39,766 nucleotides of DNA, from the NCBI RefSeq assembly GCF_001953305.1, contig NZ_MTFE01000010.1, positions 2,809,964 to 2,849,729 on the forward strand, read 5' to 3'. The notes beneath the pieces were generated by a model, which was not told the origin of the DNA, searched no databases, and saw nothing but the letters and a program-made list of their open reading frames with translations. The number at the start of each line of letters is the position of its first letter. The first letter of the stretch is position 1. Shown one piece after another: positions 28,824-37,069 of this stretch. The stretch comes from Cnuella takakiae. Lineage in GTDB: Bacteria > Bacteroidota > Bacteroidia > Chitinophagales > Chitinophagaceae. The translations under genes and the position numbers were made by a program.

Positions 28824-28908
28824 GTCATGCCGAACTTGTTGCGGCATCTACTTTCGTTCTCGGAGTTTACGAATGAAGTAGGGGGTGCCGAAGCAAGTCC
28901 GGCATGAC
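28824..28908. repeat. Palindromic repeat of the TGCCGAACTTGTT family, copy A
   Basis: Arms 28824-28838 and 28894-28908 match in 14 of 15 bp, with further partial pairing inside (GCGGCAT with GTGCCG). A related copy is at 37017-37069, and a short ATGCCGAC hairpin is at 12081-12100. Non-coding. Confidence 0.75.
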
Positions 28909-29073: not shown

Positions 29074-29105
29074 TTTGGTGGTTTATTGAACGTCCTTTAA
29101 TTTCG
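29074..29105 (+). promoter_or_regulatory. Promoter of the aromatic amino-acid operon
   Basis: TTTG at 29074-29077, a 20-bp spacer and TAATTTCG at 29098-29105. Only 5 bp separate the -7 element from the leader-peptide ATG, so transcription probably begins at or near that codon. Confidence 0.6.
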
Positions 29106-29110
29106 AAGCC

Positions 29111-29185
29111 ATGTTATTGACGAAAGCTTATTACTGGTTTTATTTTAGCTTCTTTAGCAAAGAGGCCGGGAAGCTTTTGTTCTAA
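29111..29185 (+). CDS. Aromatic leader peptide (24 residues) of an attenuator
   Basis: The frame ATG 29111 to TAA 29183-29185 codes for MLLTKAYYWFYF, then SFFS, then a short tail ending in LLF. Nine of 24 residues are aromatic: three Tyr, one Trp and five Phe, eight of them clustered within residues 7-15. It lies directly after the promoter and 33 bp before an intrinsic terminator that precedes pheA. Codons 19-20 overlap the segment 29163-29171 that can pair with the terminator's left arm. This is the layout of a ribosome-stalling leader peptide; translation of it has not been shown. Confidence 0.85.
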   Translation: MLLTKAYYWFYFSFFSKEAGKLLF

Positions 29186-29250
29186 CTAAACCACAAGAAA
29201 TAAAAAGAACAACATAGAATCCCGGCCTAACATAGGCCGGGATTTTTTTT
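29163..29250 (+). promoter_or_regulatory. Transcription attenuator with antiterminator and terminator hairpins
   Basis: The terminator is a perfect 11-bp stem (29218-29228 with 29234-29244), 5-nt loop and a run of eight T. Its left arm can instead pair with 29163-29171 (9 bp), which lies inside the leader-peptide gene. A ribosome stalled on the Tyr/Trp/Phe codons (29129-29155) would leave 29163-29171 free, forming the antiterminator. A ribosome reaching the stop at 29183 would cover it, forming the terminator. The regulated operon starts at 29273. Confidence 0.85.
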
Positions 29251-29272
29251 AGGCACAAAGCCACATAGCAAG

Positions 29273-30103
29273 ATGATGAACAGGGTATCAATCCAGGGTT
29301 TCGAAGGCAGTTTCCACCAGGTGGCTGCGCAACAGTTTTTCGGAAAAGACGTTGAAGTGATTCCCTGCGCCACCTTCCGCGAAGTGGTAAAGATTGCCGG
29401 CAACAAAAAGGAAAGCACCGGTGGCGTAATGGCCATTGAAAATTCCATTGCCGGCAGCATTTTGCCCAACTACAACCTGCTGCAAAAGAGCGGGCTCAAA
29501 GTGGTAGGGGAGATCTACCTCACCATCAAGCAAAACCTGCTGGTAAACCGCGGCGTGCAGCTGGAGGATATCCGCGAAGTGCATTCGCATCCCATGGCCA
29601 TCCAGCAGTGTCTCGATTACCTGGACAAGTACCATTGGAAACTGGTGGAAACGGAAGATACCGCACTCAGTGCCAAGCATATTGCCAAAACCCGCAGCAA
29701 GCATATTGCGGCCATTGCCTCCAAACTGGCAGCCGACCTGTTCGACCTGGACATGATTGCGCCCAATATCCACACCATGAAGAAGAACTATACCCGCTTC
29801 CTGGTGGTGCAGCGCGAAGACATGGCCCTTCCGGTGATCGAGTCAGACAAGGCCTCCATTCATTTTCATACCGACCACTCGCAGGGTAGCCTGGCCCGGG
29901 TGCTCACGGCCATTGCCGGACAAGGCATTAACCTGAGCAAGCTGCAAAGCTTCCCCATACCCGGCACCGAATGGCGTTATGCCTTCCATGCGGACCTGGA
30001 GTTTGAATCGGCAGGACAGCTGGAGCAGGCACTGGATGAAATCAGGCCGCTAACCGCAGCCTTGGATGTGTACGGTGTTTACAAAAAAGGAAAAACCATT
30101 TAA
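29273..30103 (+). CDS. pheA: Prephenate dehydratase
   Basis: The enzyme converts prephenate to phenylpyruvate in phenylalanine synthesis. The catalytic domain contains AIENSIAGSI (for the ENS motif), HSHPMAIQQC and NYTRFLVV with the essential TRF. A C-terminal ACT domain begins near GSLARVLTAIAGQGINLSK and normally binds Phe for feedback inhibition. The protein has 276 residues and no chorismate mutase part; that activity is supplied by the fusion at 32278. Two adjacent ATG codons (29273, 29276) are possible starts. First gene after the attenuator. Confidence 0.95.
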   Translation: MMNRVSIQGFEGSFHQVAAQQFFGKDVEVIPCATFREVVKIAGNKKESTGGVMAIENSIAGSILPNYNLLQKSGLKVVGEIYLTIKQNLLVNRGVQLEDIREVHSHPMAIQQCLDYLDKYHWKLVETEDTALSAKHIAKTRSKHIAAIASKLAADLFDLDMIAPNIHTMKKNYTRFLVVQREDMALPVIESDKASIHFHTDHSQGSLARVLTAIAGQGINLSKLQSFPIPGTEWRYAFHADLEFESAGQLEQALDEIRPLTAALDVYGVYKKGKTI

Positions 30104-30115
30104 CGGAATACGACC

Positions 30116-31345
30116 ATGCAGATAGCAGTAGCCAATAGGTTGAATGGCATCGGCGAATATTATTTTTCGCAAAAGCTGAAGCAGATTGAAGAACTGAACA
30201 AGACCGGCAACCCGGTACTTAACCTGGGCATCGGCAGCCCCGACCTGCCACCGCATCCCGATGTGATCCGCGTGTTGCAGGAAGAAGCCGCCAAACCCAA
30301 CACCCATGCCTACCAGAGCTATATCGGTTCGCCTGTATTGCGCAAGGCTGCTGCCGACTGGTATGCTACCTGGTACGGTGTTACCCTCGACCCCGCCAAA
30401 GAGGTACTGCCCCTGATCGGCTCCAAGGAAGGCATCATGCACATCTGCATGACCTACCTTAACGAAGGGGATTATGCCCTTATTCCCAACCCTGGTTATC
30501 CCACTTACCGCAGCGTGGTGCAATTGGCTGGCGGCAAATGCCTGGAGTACGAGCTCAAAGCCGAAAACAACTATTTCCCCGACTTCGAGGCTTTGGAACA
30601 ACAGGTCCAGGCAATAAATAAGCAGCAGGGTGCTTCCAACTCCCTCCCCACCGGGGAGGGACGGGGAGGGGCTGTTAAGCTGATGTGGGTAAACTACCCG
30701 CACATGCCCACCGGTACATTGGGTACACCGGAACTGTTTGCCCAACTCATCGCTTTTGGCAAAAAACATAATATCCTCATCTGCCACGACAACCCGTACA
30801 GCTTTATCCTCAACGACCAGCCTGCAAGCATGCTGGCTATTGAAGGAGCAAAGGATGTGGTACTGGAACTGAACTCGCTTTCCAAGTCGCAGAATATGGC
30901 GGGCTGGCGGGTAGGTTTCCTGATGGGAGCAGCTGATCGGATCAATGAAGTGTTGCGCTTCAAGAGCAACATGGACAGCGGCATGTTCCTGCCACTGCAA
31001 CTGGCGGCAGCCAAAGCGCTGAGCCTCGATGCAAGCTGGTACGATTCGGTGAACCAGCACTACCGCGAACGCAGGGTTAAAGCCTTTGAACTCCTTGACC
31101 TGCTGGGATGTACCTACTCCAAAGAACAGGTAGGGATGTTTCTTTGGGCACAAATACCCGAAGGCTATGCCGACGGCTTTGCGCTCAGCGATGAAGTGCT
31201 GGAAGGTGCCCGTGTGTTCATTACCCCCGGCGGCATCTTTGGCAGTGCAGGCAATGGTTTTATCCGGGTCAGCCTGTGCAGCCCCATTGATAAACTGGAT
31301 GCGGCCATACAGCGCATCAAAGAAAGCAGGAGCGTGGCAGTATGA
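30116..31345 (+). CDS. Class I/II aminotransferase, probable aromatic amino acid transaminase
   Basis: This PLP enzyme of fold type I probably converts phenylpyruvate and 4-hydroxyphenylpyruvate to Phe and Tyr, judged from its place between pheA and tyrA. The cofactor Lys is K257 in SLSKSQNMAGWR; NPGYPTY and DNPYSF are the other family motifs. At 409 residues it is slightly long because an in-frame repeat codes for NSLPTGEGRGG around residues 174-187, next to a poorly conserved loop (QVQAINKQQGAS). Its stop overlaps the tyrA start by 4 bp (ATGA). Confidence 0.9.
   Translation: MQIAVANRLNGIGEYYFSQKLKQIEELNKTGNPVLNLGIGSPDLPPHPDVIRVLQEEAAKPNTHAYQSYIGSPVLRKAAADWYATWYGVTLDPAKEVLPLIGSKEGIMHICMTYLNEGDYALIPNPGYPTYRSVVQLAGGKCLEYELKAENNYFPDFEALEQQVQAINKQQGASNSLPTGEGRGGAVKLMWVNYPHMPTGTLGTPELFAQLIAFGKKHNILICHDNPYSFILNDQPASMLAIEGAKDVVLELNSLSKSQNMAGWRVGFLMGAADRINEVLRFKSNMDSGMFLPLQLAAAKALSLDASWYDSVNQHYRERRVKAFELLDLLGCTYSKEQVGMFLWAQIPEGYADGFALSDEVLEGARVFITPGGIFGSAGNGFIRVSLCSPIDKLDAAIQRIKESRSVAV
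30641..30671 (+). repeat. Palindromic repeat inserted in frame in the aminotransferase gene
   Basis: A 9-bp stem TCCCTCCCC (30641-30649) with 30653-30661 and a 3-nt loop, followed by CGGGGAGGGG. The C-run/G-run hairpin style is that of the intergenic repeats in this window and unlike the surrounding coding sequence. It is translated without a frameshift or stop. Confidence 0.75.
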
Positions 31346-32181
31346 AAGCGGCAGTAATTGGCATTGGATTGATCGGTGGTTCGATGGCCCTGGCTTTAAA
31401 AGAAAAGGGACTGATTGAAAAAGCGATCGGTGTAGACAACAATGTAACCCATACCACCAAGGCCCTGGAGTTGGGTTTGGTAGATGACATAAATAGCCTC
31501 GAGCAAGCAGTACAGGAAAGTGATTTGGTGATTTTGGCTGTACCGGTACATGCCATTTCAGGGTTGCTACCCCGGGTGCTTGATCTGGTGGACAGGCAGG
31601 TGGTGATGGATGTGGGCTCAACAAAGGCCGCCATGCTGGAAGTGATTGCCAGCCATCCCAAACGCAGCCGTTTTGTAGCCTCTCATCCGATGTGGGGTAC
31701 AGAGTACAGCGGTCCCGAAGCAGCCGTAAAAGACGCTTTTGCAGGCCGCGCTACCGTGATCTGCAACCGCGAAGAATCGGATAAAGATGCGGTAACACTG
31801 GTGGAAGATCTTTACACGACCTTGGGCATGCACCTAGTGTATATGGATGCCGCAGCCCACGATGTGCACGTGGCCTATGTCAGCCATATTTCGCATATCA
31901 CCTCTTTTGCCCTCGCCAATACGGTGCTGGAAAAAGAGCGGGAAGAGGACGCAATTTTCGAGTTGGCTTCTGCTGGTTTTGCCTCCACGGTGCGCCTGGC
32001 AAAAAGCAACCCCGAAACATGGGCCAGCATCTTTATGGAAAACCGGGAGAATGTTTTGGACGTGCTCAACGAGCATATCAGCCAGCTGCGCAAGTTCAAA
32101 GCATGCCTCGAAAAAGAGAATATTGAGTACCTGGCCGAATTGATGGCCAATGCGAACAAAATAAAAAGAATTTTAAAGTAA
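31342..32181 (+). CDS. tyrA: Prephenate dehydrogenase
   Basis: TyrA oxidises prephenate to 4-hydroxyphenylpyruvate for tyrosine. The N-terminal Rossmann fold has GIGLIGGSMALALK for NAD(P). DVGSTKAAML, SHPMWGTEYSGP and HDVHVAYVSHISH are the catalytic-domain motifs, with the conserved His residues. The protein has 279 residues, with no fused mutase or ACT domain. Its ATG overlaps the aminotransferase stop, so translation is coupled. Confidence 0.95.
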   Translation: MKAAVIGIGLIGGSMALALKEKGLIEKAIGVDNNVTHTTKALELGLVDDINSLEQAVQESDLVILAVPVHAISGLLPRVLDLVDRQVVMDVGSTKAAMLEVIASHPKRSRFVASHPMWGTEYSGPEAAVKDAFAGRATVICNREESDKDAVTLVEDLYTTLGMHLVYMDAAAHDVHVAYVSHISHITSFALANTVLEKEREEDAIFELASAGFASTVRLAKSNPETWASIFMENRENVLDVLNEHISQLRKFKACLEKENIEYLAELMANANKIKRILK

Positions 32182-32194
32182 GCTGTCAGCTATT

Positions 32195-32236
32195 AGCTGT
32201 TGGCTGTTAGCTAAGAAAAGCCAACAGCCAACAGCT
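32195..32236. repeat. AGCTGTTGGC-word inverted repeat between tyrA and the DAHP synthase gene
   Basis: Arms 32195-32212 and 32219-32236 pair over 18 bp with one mismatch. No T-run follows, so it is not an obvious terminator. A second copy of the same word family lies on the other side of the DAHP synthase gene. Confidence 0.75.
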
Positions 32237-32277
32237 AAAGGCCAAAAGCTTGCTCAACAACTTATAAACCTACAAAC

Positions 32278-33366
32278 ATGCAAACAGCAACCGCCCCGCA
32301 AACCCGCTCCGTTGAGGAGGTTTGGAAAAAGCGTCCCCTGATCATCTCGGGACCCTGCAGCGCAGAAACCGAAGAGCAGGTATTGGCCACCGCCACCCGC
32401 CTGGCTGCTACCGGCAAGGTAGACGTGCTCCGCTCCGGTATCTGGAAACCCCGCACCCGTCCCGGTTCTTTCGAAGGCATTGGCACAAAGGGTCTGCCCT
32501 GGCTGCAAGCCGCCAAAAAGGCTACCGGCCTGCTCACCGCAGTGGAAGTGGCTACCGCCAAGCAGGTGGAAGACGCTCTTCATTTTGATGTGGACATCCT
32601 TTGGATTGGTGCCCGCACTACCGTAAACCCCTTCAGCGTGCAGGAAGTGGCCGATGCGCTAAAAGGAGCCAAGGTGCCCGTGCTGATTAAAAACCCCATC
32701 AACCCTGACCTCGAGCTGTGGATCGGTGCCGTTGAGCGTGTGGCTAAAGCCGGTATTAAAGACATTGGACTGATCCACCGTGGCTTCTCTTCCTACGGCA
32801 ACAGCGAATACCGCAATGCCCCCATGTGGCACCTGGCCATCGAGATGAAGCGCCGCAACCCCGAGCTGCTCATCATCAACGACCCTTCGCATATTTGCGG
32901 TCGTCGCGACATCCTGCAGGACGTTGCCCAGAAAGCCATTGACCTCGACTTCGACGGCCTGATCATCGAAAGCCATATCGACCCGGATAATGCATGGAGC
33001 GATGCCAAACAACAGGTAACCCCCGAGCGTCTTGCTGAAATGCTGGATAGCATTACCTGGCGCCGTGAGGACGTGGCTTCGGAAGAATACCACGCTGCCC
33101 TCGAAAAATTGCGTGCCCAGATCGACCACCTGGATGACGAGCTGATGCAGATCCTCAGCCAGCGCATGAAAGTGGCCGAGAAGATCGGTACTTATAAAAA
33201 AGAGAACAACATCACCGTATTGCAAACCAACCGCTGGAACGAGATCCTGCAGCGTGCCACCGCCAAGGGCGAGAAGCTGGGCCTGAGCGCCGACTTCATC
33301 ACCCGCTATTTCGACGCGGTACACCTGGAGAGCATCAACCACCAGACCAAGGTGCTGAACTCCTAG
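32278..33366 (+). CDS. Bifunctional DAHP synthase / chorismate mutase
   Basis: The N-terminal part (about residues 1-265) is a type I-beta DAHP synthase, the first step of the shikimate pathway: GPCSAETEEQV, RSGIWKPRTRPGSFEGIG, KNPINPDLELWIGA and NDPSHICGRRDI are the conserved segments. Residues about 272-362 form an AroQ-type chorismate mutase (LRAQIDHLDDELMQILSQRMKV is the hallmark helix). The order synthase-then-mutase is typical of Bacteroidota. The mutase part provides prephenate for pheA and tyrA and often confers feedback control on the synthase. Confidence 0.95.
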   Translation: MQTATAPQTRSVEEVWKKRPLIISGPCSAETEEQVLATATRLAATGKVDVLRSGIWKPRTRPGSFEGIGTKGLPWLQAAKKATGLLTAVEVATAKQVEDALHFDVDILWIGARTTVNPFSVQEVADALKGAKVPVLIKNPINPDLELWIGAVERVAKAGIKDIGLIHRGFSSYGNSEYRNAPMWHLAIEMKRRNPELLIINDPSHICGRRDILQDVAQKAIDLDFDGLIIESHIDPDNAWSDAKQQVTPERLAEMLDSITWRREDVASEEYHAALEKLRAQIDHLDDELMQILSQRMKVAEKIGTYKKENNITVLQTNRWNEILQRATAKGEKLGLSADFITRYFDAVHLESINHQTKVLNS

Positions 33367-33418
33367 GTTCAGTTTGCAGGTTTGTAGGTTTGTTTTTTAG
33401 AATAGCTCTTGGCTTTTG

Positions 33419-33458
33419 GCTATTAGCTGTTAGCTTCTCCCTGCTAACAGCTAATAGC
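33419..33458. repeat. AGCTATTAGC-word inverted repeat between the DAHP synthase gene and aroB
   Basis: Arms 33419-33434 and 33443-33458 are an exact 16-bp inverted repeat, with an extra AATAGCTAACAGC word to the right. Related to 32195-32236. The weak TTATTTTA after it is not a convincing terminator, in keeping with a continuous operon. Confidence 0.75.
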
Positions 33459-33508
33459 TAATAGCTAACAGCTTATTTTAAACCTCTTTTATATACTAAC
33501 GCCCCTCA

Positions 33509-34519
33509 ATGCCCGAAAAGAAGATCCAGTTCAGCAGGCAAAAGGTTTCTTACTTCTTTGAAGCCTCCATCAGCCAGCTGAAGGAAATAGTACCACAGAA
33601 GAAGACCATCATCATTACCGACCAGCACCTTTTTGATCTGCATCAAAAGAAGTTCAAGGGTTTCCAGACCATTGTACTTAAGCCAGGCGAGCAGTACAAG
33701 GTGCAGGCAACAGTAGACGCTGTCATCGAGCAACTGATCGCCCTCAAGGCCGACCGCCAGAGTTTCCTGGTGGGTGTGGGCGGCGGTGTTATTACTGACC
33801 TCACCGGATACATTGCTTCCGTATTTATGCGCGGCATTGGTTTTGGCTTTGTGCCTACCACCTTATTGGCCATGGTGGATGCATCAATTGGTGGCAAGAA
33901 TGGTATTGATGTAGGTGCTTACAAGAACATGGTGGGTACCATCAACCAACCGCGTTTCCTGTTGTACGACGCATCCCTGCTCAAGACCTTACCTGATGGC
34001 GAGTGGCGCAATGGTTTTGCAGAAATCATCAAGCACGCAGCTATTAAGGATGTATCAATGTTCCGGCAGCTTGAAGCTGCCAGTCTCAAGCATTTTCAAA
34101 AGAACAAGGCTGCGTTGGAAGCACTCATCCGCCGCAATGCCCTGATCAAATCAAAAGTGGTGCAGGAAGACGAATTTGAAAAAGGCGAACGCCGCCTGCT
34201 CAACTTTGGTCATACTTTGGCCCATGCCATCGAAACGCCTTACAACCTGCCACATGGTCATGCCGTGAGCATCGGTATGAGCTTCGCCGCCCATCTTTCC
34301 GAAGAGCTGCTTGGATTCAATGGTTTTGTACGCCTTCAGCAACTGATCCAGCAGTATGGATTACCTACTGAAATTATTTTCGACCGTCAGCAAACCTTCG
34401 AGCTGCTCACCAGCGACAAGAAGAAGGACGGCGACCATATGAATTTTGTTTTGCTCAGTAAAGTAGGCAAGGCACTGGTAGAAAAAATCCCGCTTCAAAC
34501 TATTTACAACTATCTCTGA
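33509..34519 (+). CDS. aroB: 3-Dehydroquinate synthase
   Basis: AroB closes DAHP to 3-dehydroquinate using NAD and a metal. GVGGGVITDLTGYIASVFMRG, PTTLLAMVDASIGGKNGID and NFGHTLAHAIET are the family motifs, with the metal-binding Glu and His in the last two regions and HGHAVSIGM. At 336 residues it is somewhat shorter than E. coli AroB (about 362). Its TGA overlaps the aroA ATG by one base. Confidence 0.95.
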   Translation: MPEKKIQFSRQKVSYFFEASISQLKEIVPQKKTIIITDQHLFDLHQKKFKGFQTIVLKPGEQYKVQATVDAVIEQLIALKADRQSFLVGVGGGVITDLTGYIASVFMRGIGFGFVPTTLLAMVDASIGGKNGIDVGAYKNMVGTINQPRFLLYDASLLKTLPDGEWRNGFAEIIKHAAIKDVSMFRQLEAASLKHFQKNKAALEALIRRNALIKSKVVQEDEFEKGERRLLNFGHTLAHAIETPYNLPHGHAVSIGMSFAAHLSEELLGFNGFVRLQQLIQQYGLPTEIIFDRQQTFELLTSDKKKDGDHMNFVLLSKVGKALVEKIPLQTIYNYL

Positions 34520-35811
34520 TGATTGCAACGGTTCAACCCTCCAGCATAAAAGGCACCATCACCGCGCCTGCATCCAAGAGCGCCATGCAGCGTGCCTGCG
34601 CGGCCGCACTGGTGCGCAAAGGCATTTCGGTACTGCACAATCCCGGTGTTTCCAACGATGACAAAGCGGCACTCAATATCATCCAGCAACTGGGTGCAAC
34701 GGTACAACAAGCAGGTGAAACAATTGTAGTGGAAAGCGGCGGTGTGGCTCCTGTTGCCGACACCATCGACTGCCACGAAAGCGGTCTTTCCATTCGCATG
34801 TTTACTTCTGTTGCCGCATTGGCTTCCCGCAAAATATCGGTTGTTGGTTCCGGCAGTCTTGCAAAAAGACCCATGAACTTCTTCGATGAAGTGCTGCCTC
34901 AACTGGAAGTGGAGATCAATAGCAGGGAAGGTTACCTGCCGCTGGAGATCACCGGTCCTTTGCAACCCCGCAACATTACCGTAGATGGTTCGCTGTCTTC
35001 GCAATACCTCACCGGTTTGCTCTTTGCCTATGCCGCTGCCGGTGCATCTGATGTAGGCATCCATGTTACCAACCTCAATAGCCGTCCTTATGTCGACCTG
35101 ACTTTGGAAGTGCTGAAATCATTTGGTTTACCCGTACCGGAAAACCGCAACTATGAAACTTTTTATTTTCCGCCGCTTGCAGCTACTGCGCCTGCGGAAA
35201 AGATCGACTATACCGTTGAAGGCGACTGGAGCGGTGGCGCTTTCCTGTTGGTAGGTGCCGCCATTGCAGGTGATGTGGTGGTAAAAGGACTGGACCTGCA
35301 ATCTGCACAGGCCGACAAAGCCGTGATGCAGGCCCTGATGAGTGCCAGTGCTTTGATGAGCGTGGAAGTGGACCAAATCCATATCCGCCAATCCAAACTC
35401 AAAGCATTCCAGTTTGATGCTACCGACTGCCCCGACCTGTTTCCGCCATTGGTTGCCCTTGCTTCTTATTGCGAAGGCACTACAGTGATACAGGGCACTA
35501 CGCGCCTTACGCATAAAGAAAGCAACCGGGCGCTCACTTTGCAGGAAGAGTTTGGTAAAATGGGTATCGAGATCAATTTGCAGGACGACCTGATGATCAT
35601 TAAAGGTGGTACAGGCATTACCAACACCGAAGTTTCTTCGCATAACGATCACCGTATAGCCATGGCAGCTGCTGTTGCAGCGCTCAAGGGCGAAGGCACC
35701 ATGACCATCAGCGGTGCCGAAGCGGTTAATAAATCCTATCCCCAGTTCTGGAGCCATATCGCGCAATTGGGTGCAAGCGTAACAACAACAGATGCTGTTT
35801 TGAACCACTAA
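34519..35811 (+). CDS. aroA: 3-Phosphoshikimate 1-carboxyvinyltransferase (EPSP synthase)
   Basis: AroA adds enolpyruvate to shikimate-3-phosphate. APASKSAMQRACAAAL near the N-terminus contains the substrate-binding Lys and Ser. GSLAKRPMNFF, DGSLSSQYLTGLL, DATDCPDLFPPLVALA and HNDHRIAMAAAVAAL carry the catalytic Asp, Arg and His. CHESGLSIRMFTSVA replaces the usual GNAGTAxRP loop, a divergence I consider normal for this phylum. It has 430 residues and is translationally coupled to aroB. The final Asn-His codons and the stop lie in an AACCACTAAG repeat word. Confidence 0.94.
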   Translation: MIATVQPSSIKGTITAPASKSAMQRACAAALVRKGISVLHNPGVSNDDKAALNIIQQLGATVQQAGETIVVESGGVAPVADTIDCHESGLSIRMFTSVAALASRKISVVGSGSLAKRPMNFFDEVLPQLEVEINSREGYLPLEITGPLQPRNITVDGSLSSQYLTGLLFAYAAAGASDVGIHVTNLNSRPYVDLTLEVLKSFGLPVPENRNYETFYFPPLAATAPAEKIDYTVEGDWSGGAFLLVGAAIAGDVVVKGLDLQSAQADKAVMQALMSASALMSVEVDQIHIRQSKLKAFQFDATDCPDLFPPLVALASYCEGTTVIQGTTRLTHKESNRALTLQEEFGKMGIEINLQDDLMIIKGGTGITNTEVSSHNDHRIAMAAAVAALKGEGTMTISGAEAVNKSYPQFWSHIAQLGASVTTTDAVLNH

Positions 35812-35945: not shown

Positions 35946-36941
35946 ATGAACTCTTTCGGCCGACTTTTTCGCGTAAGCATATTTGGAGAATCGCATGGAC
36001 CTGCGGTAGGCATTATCATCGATGGTTGCCCTGCCGGTATCGATCTCGCTCCTGAAGATTTTACCACCGATATTGAACGCCGCAAGGGCGGTACGCAAAA
36101 AGGCACTACACCCCGCCAGGAAGCCGACCTGCCCATTTTTCAAAGTGGTGTGTTCAAGGGTAAAACCACTGGCGCTCCGCTAACCGTCTTGTTTGAAAAC
36201 AATAATACTCGCTCTGGCGATTACGAAAAGCAACGGTCTTTTCCACGTCCCGGTCATGCCGACTTTGTTGCCAGCAAAAAATTTGGCGGCTATGAAGATT
36301 TTCGCGGTGGCGGTCACTTTAGTGGCCGGCTTACAGTATGCCTGGTTGCCGCAGGTGTGGTGGCAAAAAAGGTGCTGGGTGCTGTTGATGTAAAAGCTTC
36401 CATCCTCGAAATAGGTGGTGAGCAGGACCTGGAGAAAGGGCTGCAGAAAGCTATTGATGCAAAAGATTCTGTTGGTGGTATTGTTGAATGCGTGGTAAGC
36501 GGGCTGCCTATCGGACTTGGTGAGCCTTTCTTTGATTCTGTTGAATCAGTGATTGCACATGCAGCCTTTGCCATACCTGCGGTAAAAGGCATCGAATTTG
36601 GTGCGGGCTTCCTGGCAGCCAAGATGTTTGGTGTGTCGCACAACGATACTTTGCTGGATATGGAAGGTCATACCGAAAGCAATAATGCAGGGGGGGTAGT
36701 GGGTGGCATCAGCAATGGCAATAAACTGGTTTTCCGGGTTGCTATAAAGCCCACATCTTCTACACCTAAAGAACAGGAATCCTTGAACTGGGAAACTGGT
36801 GAAGTGGAGAAGTTTTCCATCAAGGGCCGTCATGATCTTTGTATTGCGCTGCGTGTACCGCCTGTATTGGAAGCTGTTGCTGCCATGGCCATGGCCGACC
36901 TGATGTTGCTGGAAGGTGTTCGGCCTAGGGTTGTTCAATAG
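35946..36941 (+). CDS. aroC: Chorismate synthase
   Basis: AroC makes chorismate from EPSP with reduced FMN. FGESHGPAVGIIIDGCPAG, RPGHADFVASKKFGGYEDFRGGGHFSGR (split across residues about 99-127) and the C-terminal GRHDLCIALRVPPVLEA are diagnostic. At 331 residues it is a little shorter than many homologues (about 360) but ends normally. It is the last gene of the aromatic operon. A weak 7-bp hairpin (36987-37008) follows, without a T-run. Confidence 0.95.
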   Translation: MNSFGRLFRVSIFGESHGPAVGIIIDGCPAGIDLAPEDFTTDIERRKGGTQKGTTPRQEADLPIFQSGVFKGKTTGAPLTVLFENNNTRSGDYEKQRSFPRPGHADFVASKKFGGYEDFRGGGHFSGRLTVCLVAAGVVAKKVLGAVDVKASILEIGGEQDLEKGLQKAIDAKDSVGGIVECVVSGLPIGLGEPFFDSVESVIAHAAFAIPAVKGIEFGAGFLAAKMFGVSHNDTLLDMEGHTESNNAGGVVGGISNGNKLVFRVAIKPTSSTPKEQESLNWETGEVEKFSIKGRHDLCIALRVPPVLEAVAAMAMADLMLLEGVRPRVVQ

Positions 36942-37016: not shown

Positions 37017-37069
37017 CTGTCATGCCGAACTTGTTTCGGCACCTCCTCTGATACTGAGGCATGTGACAG
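37017..37069. repeat. Palindromic repeat of the TGCCGAACTTGTT family, copy B
   Basis: CTGTCATGCCGAACTTGTTT at the left and GGCATGTGACAG at the right form an imperfect hairpin. Its left arm is nearly the same as copy A at 28824. It lies in the 350-bp gap after aroC, which holds no gene. Confidence 0.7.

Follow-up and report, generated by a model that had tools for sequence, protein, structure and literature searches.

The pheA operon and the features of its leader region

The window (the whole stretch of DNA analyzed here, 39,766 nt) contains a run of seven genes for the synthesis of Phe, Tyr, and chorismate, which is preceded by a short open reading frame and an intrinsic terminator (Table 1). 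The successive intergenic gaps from pheA to aroC measure 12, -4, 96, 142, -1, and 134 nt. The gene order is well preserved: among 68 relatives with at least 7.5 kb of downstream sequence, it is the same as in the window for all seven genes in 42, for the first six in 23, for the first five in one, and for the first three in two. Several repeats and motifs were also noted around the genes. The gap before aroB contains a TAnnTTTG box (33385-33392), a possible inner promoter, and palindromic repeats of the AGCTATTAGCTGTTAGCT type are present in two of the operon gaps (32182-32277 and 33367-33508), where they could influence how the distal genes are transcribed; one such unit has 16 matches in the genome at up to two mismatches. 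A further interspersed repeat, TCATGCCGAACTTGTTNCGGCA, lies on either side of the operon (28825-28846 and 37020-37041) and has 94 genomic copies at up to one mismatch (reversed control: 0).

Table 1. Coordinates of the features of the pheA leader region and operon in the window.
Feature	Position	Strand	Remarks
-33-like element, TTTG	29074..29077	+	Read from the sequence; 20 nt 5' of the -7 box
-7 box, TAATTTCG	29098..29105	+	Consensus TAnnTTTG; 5 nt 5' of the leader ATG
Leader peptide ORF, MLLTKAYYWFYFSFFSKEAGKLLF	29111..29185	+	24 codons; predicted 5' UTR of about 1 nt
Protector strand 1, GACGAAAGCTT	29119..29129	+	Predicted; partner AAGCTTTTGTT, 29171-29181
Regulatory codons, YYWFYFSFF	29129..29155	+	8/9 aromatic
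Protector strand 1b, CTGGTTTT	29134..29141	+	Predicted; contains the Trp codon; partner GAGGCCGG, 29162-29169
Strand 2 (antiterminator 5' strand), AGGCCGGGA...TTGTTCT	29163..29183	+	Within the leader ORF
Strand 3 (antiterminator 3' strand), AGAACAA...TCCCGGCCT	29206..29228	+	3' part lies in the terminator left arm
Intrinsic terminator	29216..29250	+	14-bp stem, 3-nt loop, eight T
pheA, prephenate dehydratase (PF00800)	29273..30103	+	
Class I/II aminotransferase (PF00155)	30116..31345	+	Presumably aromatic
tyrA, prephenate dehydrogenase	31342..32181	+	
DAHP synthase-chorismate mutase fusion	32278..33366	+	
aroB, 3-dehydroquinate synthase	33509..34519	+	
aroA, 3-phosphoshikimate 1-carboxyvinyltransferase	34519..35811	+	
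aroC, chorismate synthase	35946..36941	+	

A conserved leader peptide rich in Phe and Tyr codons

The leader ORF contains five Phe, three Tyr, and one Trp codons, with eight aromatic codons among the nine of positions 7-15, exactly as described in the original prediction. Such a density is rarely reached by chance: at least six aromatic residues within nine codons were found in 56/68 real upstream regions from the class, as against 22/680 dinucleotide shuffles. To trace the frame among close relatives we fetched 80 of their pheA loci, 78 of which were testable (L023 and L081 had too little upstream DNA), and an ATG-started ORF with at least six aromatic residues per nine codons precedes pheA in every one of these 78, often specifying a peptide resembling KAYRFFYFYFYF...RPGMLLL. 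In the family alignment, which comprises the window and these relatives' leaders (79 rows), gaps within the aromatic cluster are 3, 6, or 9 positions long in 43 of 44 cases, while those 3' of the leader stop codon have many different lengths, a pattern indicating that the leader frame has been selected as a frame.

The position of the presumptive promoter is also distinctive. The elements upstream of the leader agree with the spacing rule that holds between -33 and -7 elements of promoters. In a flavobacterium, the TAnnTTTG box occupies positions -12 to -5 (PMC9723704, section 15), and the transcription start in the window is therefore predicted at about 29110, one base before the ATG. The message had originally been suggested to be leaderless; the promoter spacing supports this in essence, the start being predicted to be near-leaderless, i.e., about 1 nt upstream of the ATG. 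Across the family set, in which one genome is represented twice, a -7 box lies within 12 nt of the ATG in 79/87 leaders, whereas control stretches have a box of equal quality within that distance in 34/405. The trp leaders of the window's family have one within 12 nt in 23/33 cases, and in 13 pheA leaders, 12 of which belong to family f5, it lies 29-30 nt from the ATG. As background, leaderless mRNAs are reported to make up 5.5% in F. psychrophilum (PMC9723704) and 5' UTRs of less than 10 nt 3.7% in B. thetaiotaomicron (PMC7366714), translation initiation in the window's group reportedly dispenses with Shine-Dalgarno signals (PMC9723704), and a leaderless trpL has been described from Sinorhizobium (PMC7298713).

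Competing helices in the leader RNA

The leader region folds with a stability that none of 200 shuffles equals (z = -5.0). The arms of the terminator (29216-29229 and 29233-29246, followed by a T run at 29243-29250) form a stem that includes the perfect 11-bp helix and eight T first noticed there and extends it to 14 bp, with weak A-U pairs at the ends; some members of the family have an interrupted U run. The 9-bp pairing between 29163-29171 and 29220-29228 that had been put forward as the alternative to the terminator is likewise present, and the antiterminator also has an inner 7-bp helix (29177-29183 with 29206-29212) that had been overlooked. The initial view that only two hairpins compete has to be amended by a predicted third helix, which would protect the 5' strand of the antiterminator; with this predicted protector the arrangement would be the usual three-helix scheme of 1:2, 2:3, and 3:4 pairings.

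Compensatory changes are present in both the antiterminator and the terminator. In the family alignment, 95.5% of the terminator cells are paired, with 47 double-change cells against 3.5 in shuffles, and 86.8% of the antiterminator cells are paired, as against 27-46% in controls slid along the alignment. The antiterminator has 49 double-change cells against 18.2 in shuffles, a comparison not corrected for relatedness, and by two of five measures shuffles do reach its values (the double-change pairs in 35/500 and the further pair types in 158/500). The most telling columns, 88 and 128, contain G-C 39 times, A-U 21 times, U-A six times, and C-G once; part of this variation reflects a Leu codon, TTG in some leaders and TTA in others, with CAACA and TAACA as the respective partners, a change that leaves the peptide unaltered and does not involve the terminator. 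The protector is predicted in 77/79 family leaders and has 84.4% of its cells paired (slid controls: 40-58%); a control slid by +3 exceeds its covariation score (0.173 vs 0.161), so we regard this helix as likely, not proven, and 226/500 shuffles equal its count of double-change pairs, making it the weakest of the helices.

Exchanging strands between leaders gave a concordant picture, under controls that, like the shuffles, leave the relatedness among the sequences in place. In the 79 family leaders, the native antiterminator strands pair at -23.6 kcal/mol and the swapped ones at -20.7 kcal/mol, and the corresponding values for the protector are -13.5 and -11.9 kcal/mol (0/5000 permutations in either case). 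For the antiterminator strands of the forty leaders of the first class sample with a terminator, eight of them from the window's family, the values are -17.2 vs -12.2 kcal/mol (0/5000). RNAalifold recovered from the alignment the terminator and no other stem, as expected when structures are exclusive.

Phyletic spread and association with the head of the operon

A first class-level sample took in every genome of the window's family, order, and class with a PDT match among those sampled from the phylum, the window's own genome (G000) excluded, which gave 68 pheA loci. At 56 of these, pheA is directly preceded by the leader, with a distribution that depends on the family: 8/8 in f1, 5/5 in f2, 7/7 in f3, 29/29 in f5, 3/7 in f8, 2/2 each in f9 and f11, 0/6 in f4, and 0/2 in f10. 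The window's family, f1, is probably Chitinophagaceae, because one of its members (G253) shares its leader DNA with Chitinophagaceae bacterium PMP191F (L003); judged by the trpE locus, the two are the same genome, which is accordingly counted twice in the pooled sets. A second class sample of 295 genomes had 78 with a PDT match and 42 new loci, of which 40, mostly from other families, were fetched (all but G440 and G433; L368, L383, and L385 have short upstream DNA), and 19 of these 40 have the leader upstream of pheA. Both samples together thus have it directly upstream at 75/108 loci and at the head of a rearranged operon at four more, with no leader found at the other 29. The two f4 loci without the leader that were inspected, of six, have pheA outside any aromatic operon within the fetched stretch, and both f10 loci without it encode what look by eye like chorismate mutase-PDT fusions. 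In other classes of the phylum, none of 29 pheA loci reached the leader threshold.

Within the first sample, a simple finder located a terminator in 40 of the 56 leaders and, in 35, an antiterminator with six or more base pairs, four or more of them G-C; 11 of the 16 leaders in which it found no terminator belong to f5 and to one genus, for which a better finder may be needed. A covariance model of the family leader (R1) has a single match in the window's genome. Among 69 genomes, it has a match at E ≤0.01 in 52, and its best 29 matches all lie at the pheA operon, the 30th lying elsewhere; it fails to detect the leader of G007, a member of the window's family.

The four loci of f8 that lack the leader before pheA are informative with respect to what is controlled. 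Their operon begins with DAHP synthase and has pheA in an internal position (genes named by eye from their first residues), and a like leader precedes the DAHP synthase gene, which argues for control of the operon and not of pheA. The original prediction had the entire operon under the leader, and the preserved gene order and the persistence of the leader at the head after rearrangement make this plausible. However, given the gaps of 96, 142, and 134 nt and the promoter-like box before aroB, we only infer that control reaches the distal genes.

Phe and Tyr as the probable principal regulatory amino acids

When the family set is pooled with the first class sample, each of the 135 leaders (one genome twice) contains both Phe and Tyr, and the two tend to alternate. 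Over 156 leaders with 114 distinct clusters, F/Y alternation amounts to 490 against 377 ± 12 in shuffles, and the excess holds separately in the family set (282 vs 206) and in the other families (208 vs 172), with 0/2000 shuffles reaching the observed value in each case. Shared descent, and a tendency to avoid long stretches of U, could contribute to it. With alternating codons, a shortage of either Phe or Tyr would stall the ribosome at nearly one site.

The leader had initially been taken to sense all three aromatic amino acids, such that the Trp codon, too, would stall the ribosome and a shortage of any of them would open the chorismate-making operon. The Trp codon does fall within the stall window here, and Trp occurs inside the 12-codon cluster of 32/135 leaders from several families. 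Yet it is missing from the cluster of 71 of the 79 family leaders, being present in only eight, and where the window has its Trp codon, 31/79 aligned leaders have CGN or GGN and 8/79 have TGG. Moreover, the predicted protector brings the columns of the Trp codon and of the codon preceding it into pairing with strand 2 (mean probability 0.25-0.76), and the TGG may therefore be retained for the sake of RNA pairing. Finally, Trp has a leader of its own in this genome, with WWW, before trpE, and WW leaders precede trpE at 89/93 loci (a raw count), indicating that Trp is read elsewhere. We accordingly consider a true three-amino-acid attenuator unlikely, and the regulatory response appears, from the codon content, to be mainly to Phe and Tyr.

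The trp leader of the window's genome, MNNIQWWWHSNA (L192), is encoded on the - strand about 230 nt before the TrpE domain, with a GC-rich hairpin and then a T run downstream. We also considered whether pheA leaders might acquire Trp codons in genomes in which the leader of the trp operon has been lost, and rejected the idea: a WW leader precedes trpE at 73 of 75 loci (72 identified by script, and G099 separately) and at 16 of 18 others, among them that of the window's genome. Both the 75 and the 93 include one genome twice, as G253 and as L003. Comparable frames precede other amino acid operons of the same genome, viz., a His-rich ORF, MITLVHIHHNAHTCLAG (L218), about 270 nt before the HisG domain and an Ile/Val-rich ORF, MKLHIAVSIIAIVVIIIPA (L240), about 310 nt before the IlvD domain. 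Three or more His within six codons occur in an ORF at 21/21 hisG loci, and the ilvD leaders are clear only in the window's genome and a few others (by raw count and by inspection, respectively).

A proposed attenuation mechanism and its alternatives

The conservation and covariation of the leader, antiterminator, and terminator strongly support attenuation, as was first surmised. The comparisons of sequences yield a conserved F/Y leader, two competing stems with compensatory changes, and a position at the head of the operon; from these we infer translation of the frame, stalling, the transcription start, the role of the protector, and the response of the distal genes. On this basis, the element is very probably a classical ribosome-mediated transcription attenuator that would read charged tRNA-Phe and tRNA-Tyr and control the aromatic operon.

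We propose that transcription would begin about one base before the leader AUG, so that a ribosome could load at the 5' end at once. With ample Phe and Tyr, it would reach the stop codon and cover strand 2, leaving strand 3 free to form the 3:4 terminator. When Phe or Tyr is short, the ribosome would stall in YYWFYFSFF and mask strand 1, such that the protector (1:2) could not hold strand 2; the freed strand 2 would then pair with strand 3, pre-empting the terminator and allowing the operon to be transcribed. In an untranslated leader, the protector would form and termination would follow. Folding calculations are compatible with parts of this scheme: before the right arm of the terminator is made, strand 2 is free for strand 3 when the ribosome is masked in the aromatic stretch as far as codon 14, and it is unavailable to strand 3 with the ribosome masked at the stop codon. 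With no ribosome, the antiterminator is favored at equilibrium before the right arm is made, and in the finished transcript the terminator is favored at equilibrium in all ribosome positions tried. The equilibrium folds hence show no switch, and the outcome would be decided kinetically during RNA synthesis, as in the race model of attenuation (PMC1183508).

Within this framework, we lean slightly toward a two-input OR gate, in which selection would keep Phe and Tyr codons alternating, and a shortage of either would open the operon for both amino acids and their shared precursor. The near-leaderless start would tie the ribosome to the polymerase in the window's family, and the device would follow the head of the operon.

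Alternatively, the operon might not be attenuated at all, the locus consisting of a plain terminator together with a small protein or with an RNA that early termination releases to act in trans, along the lines of rnTrpL and peTrpL of Sinorhizobium (PMC7298713). Termination here would indeed free an RNA of about 140 nt, and the short near-leaderless leader resembles the Sinorhizobium trpL (PMC7298713). The antiterminator strand, however, would be needless for such an RNA and nevertheless covaries with the terminator arm, and the element keeps its place at the head of the operon after a change of gene order, so that we hold this very improbable. An exit-tunnel arrest peptide of the kind exemplified by TnaC, which would halt its own ribosome on sensing a free aromatic compound and not uncharged tRNA, would also be a short, conserved, hydrophobic peptide followed by a terminator, but it is scarcely credible for a frame in which composition alone is kept, F and Y interchange freely, cluster lengths differ in whole-codon steps, the flanking residues differ among families, and the C-terminal residues track RNA pairing within the family. 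A riboswitch or T-box was considered and rejected, the window having no Rfam match.

Comparison with known systems

At the gathering cut-off, a scan of the window gave no match to any Rfam family (T-box and riboswitch families included), and the window's leader stayed below the cut-offs of the two leader families compared. One of these is the enterobacterial pheL (RF01859), in which a Phe-rich leader peptide, not known to contain Tyr codons, precedes pheA together with a terminator and antiterminator. The window's leader resembles it in having Phe codons before pheA and the alternative terminator and antiterminator, with a weak full-length match (24.6 bits, E = 0.044, against a cut-off of 55 bits; among class relatives, 31.8 bits for L135 and 27 bits for L158), and differs from it in its mixed Phe/Tyr codons, the multi-gene Phe/Tyr/chorismate cluster, and the near-leaderless start predicted for it. 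Bacteroid-trp (RF01692), from the same phylum, likewise places a leader peptide attenuator ahead of an amino acid operon, but it senses Trp (WWW). It has no match to the window's pheA leader up to E = 10 (cut-off 49 bits) and none to the trp leader of the same genome (L192) up to E = 1; one of six trp loci scanned passes the cut-off (L180, from a genome of the class, 73.2 bits). The pheA leader would constitute a new Rfam family. Leader peptides whose codons specify more than one amino acid are already familiar from the enterobacterial ilvGMEDA and thr attenuators; these are likewise multivalent, but for branched-chain amino acids or Thr and Ile, not aromatics.

Nearer to the window, a putative attenuator was listed before the Bacteroides thetaiotaomicron pheA>hisHb>aroA-aroQ>tyrA (PMC1173090, 2005, Table 7). 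Phylum and type of operon are the same as here; the entry is taken from a predicted-structure website and names no leader peptide, codons, or mechanism. A structured 5' element with no Rfam match that is kept before pheA in Flavobacteriaceae was reported in 2021 (PMC9723704), and section 19 of that paper sees hints that amino acid operons are attenuated by leader peptides; the likeness to our element lies in the structured region 5' of pheA. We found no description of the Phe/Tyr leader peptide in the open-access literature searched. In 2010, Naville and Gautheret (PMC2965389) knew of no leader peptide system, other than ermC, demonstrated beyond Proteobacteria and Actinobacteria, and they added a case from Firmicutes. 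In a class of another phylum, leader peptides now apparently govern aromatic, Trp, and His operons, and ilvD in some genomes. The bivalent leader offers a means to study how one ribosome race integrates two amino acids, and the question of whether near-leaderless starts serve attenuation becomes testable. The mechanism itself is classical attenuation; what look new against these precedents are the bivalent code of alternating Phe and Tyr, its wide occurrence in the class, the way the element stays with the first gene of the operon when genes are rearranged, and, for one family, a start predicted to be nearly leaderless.
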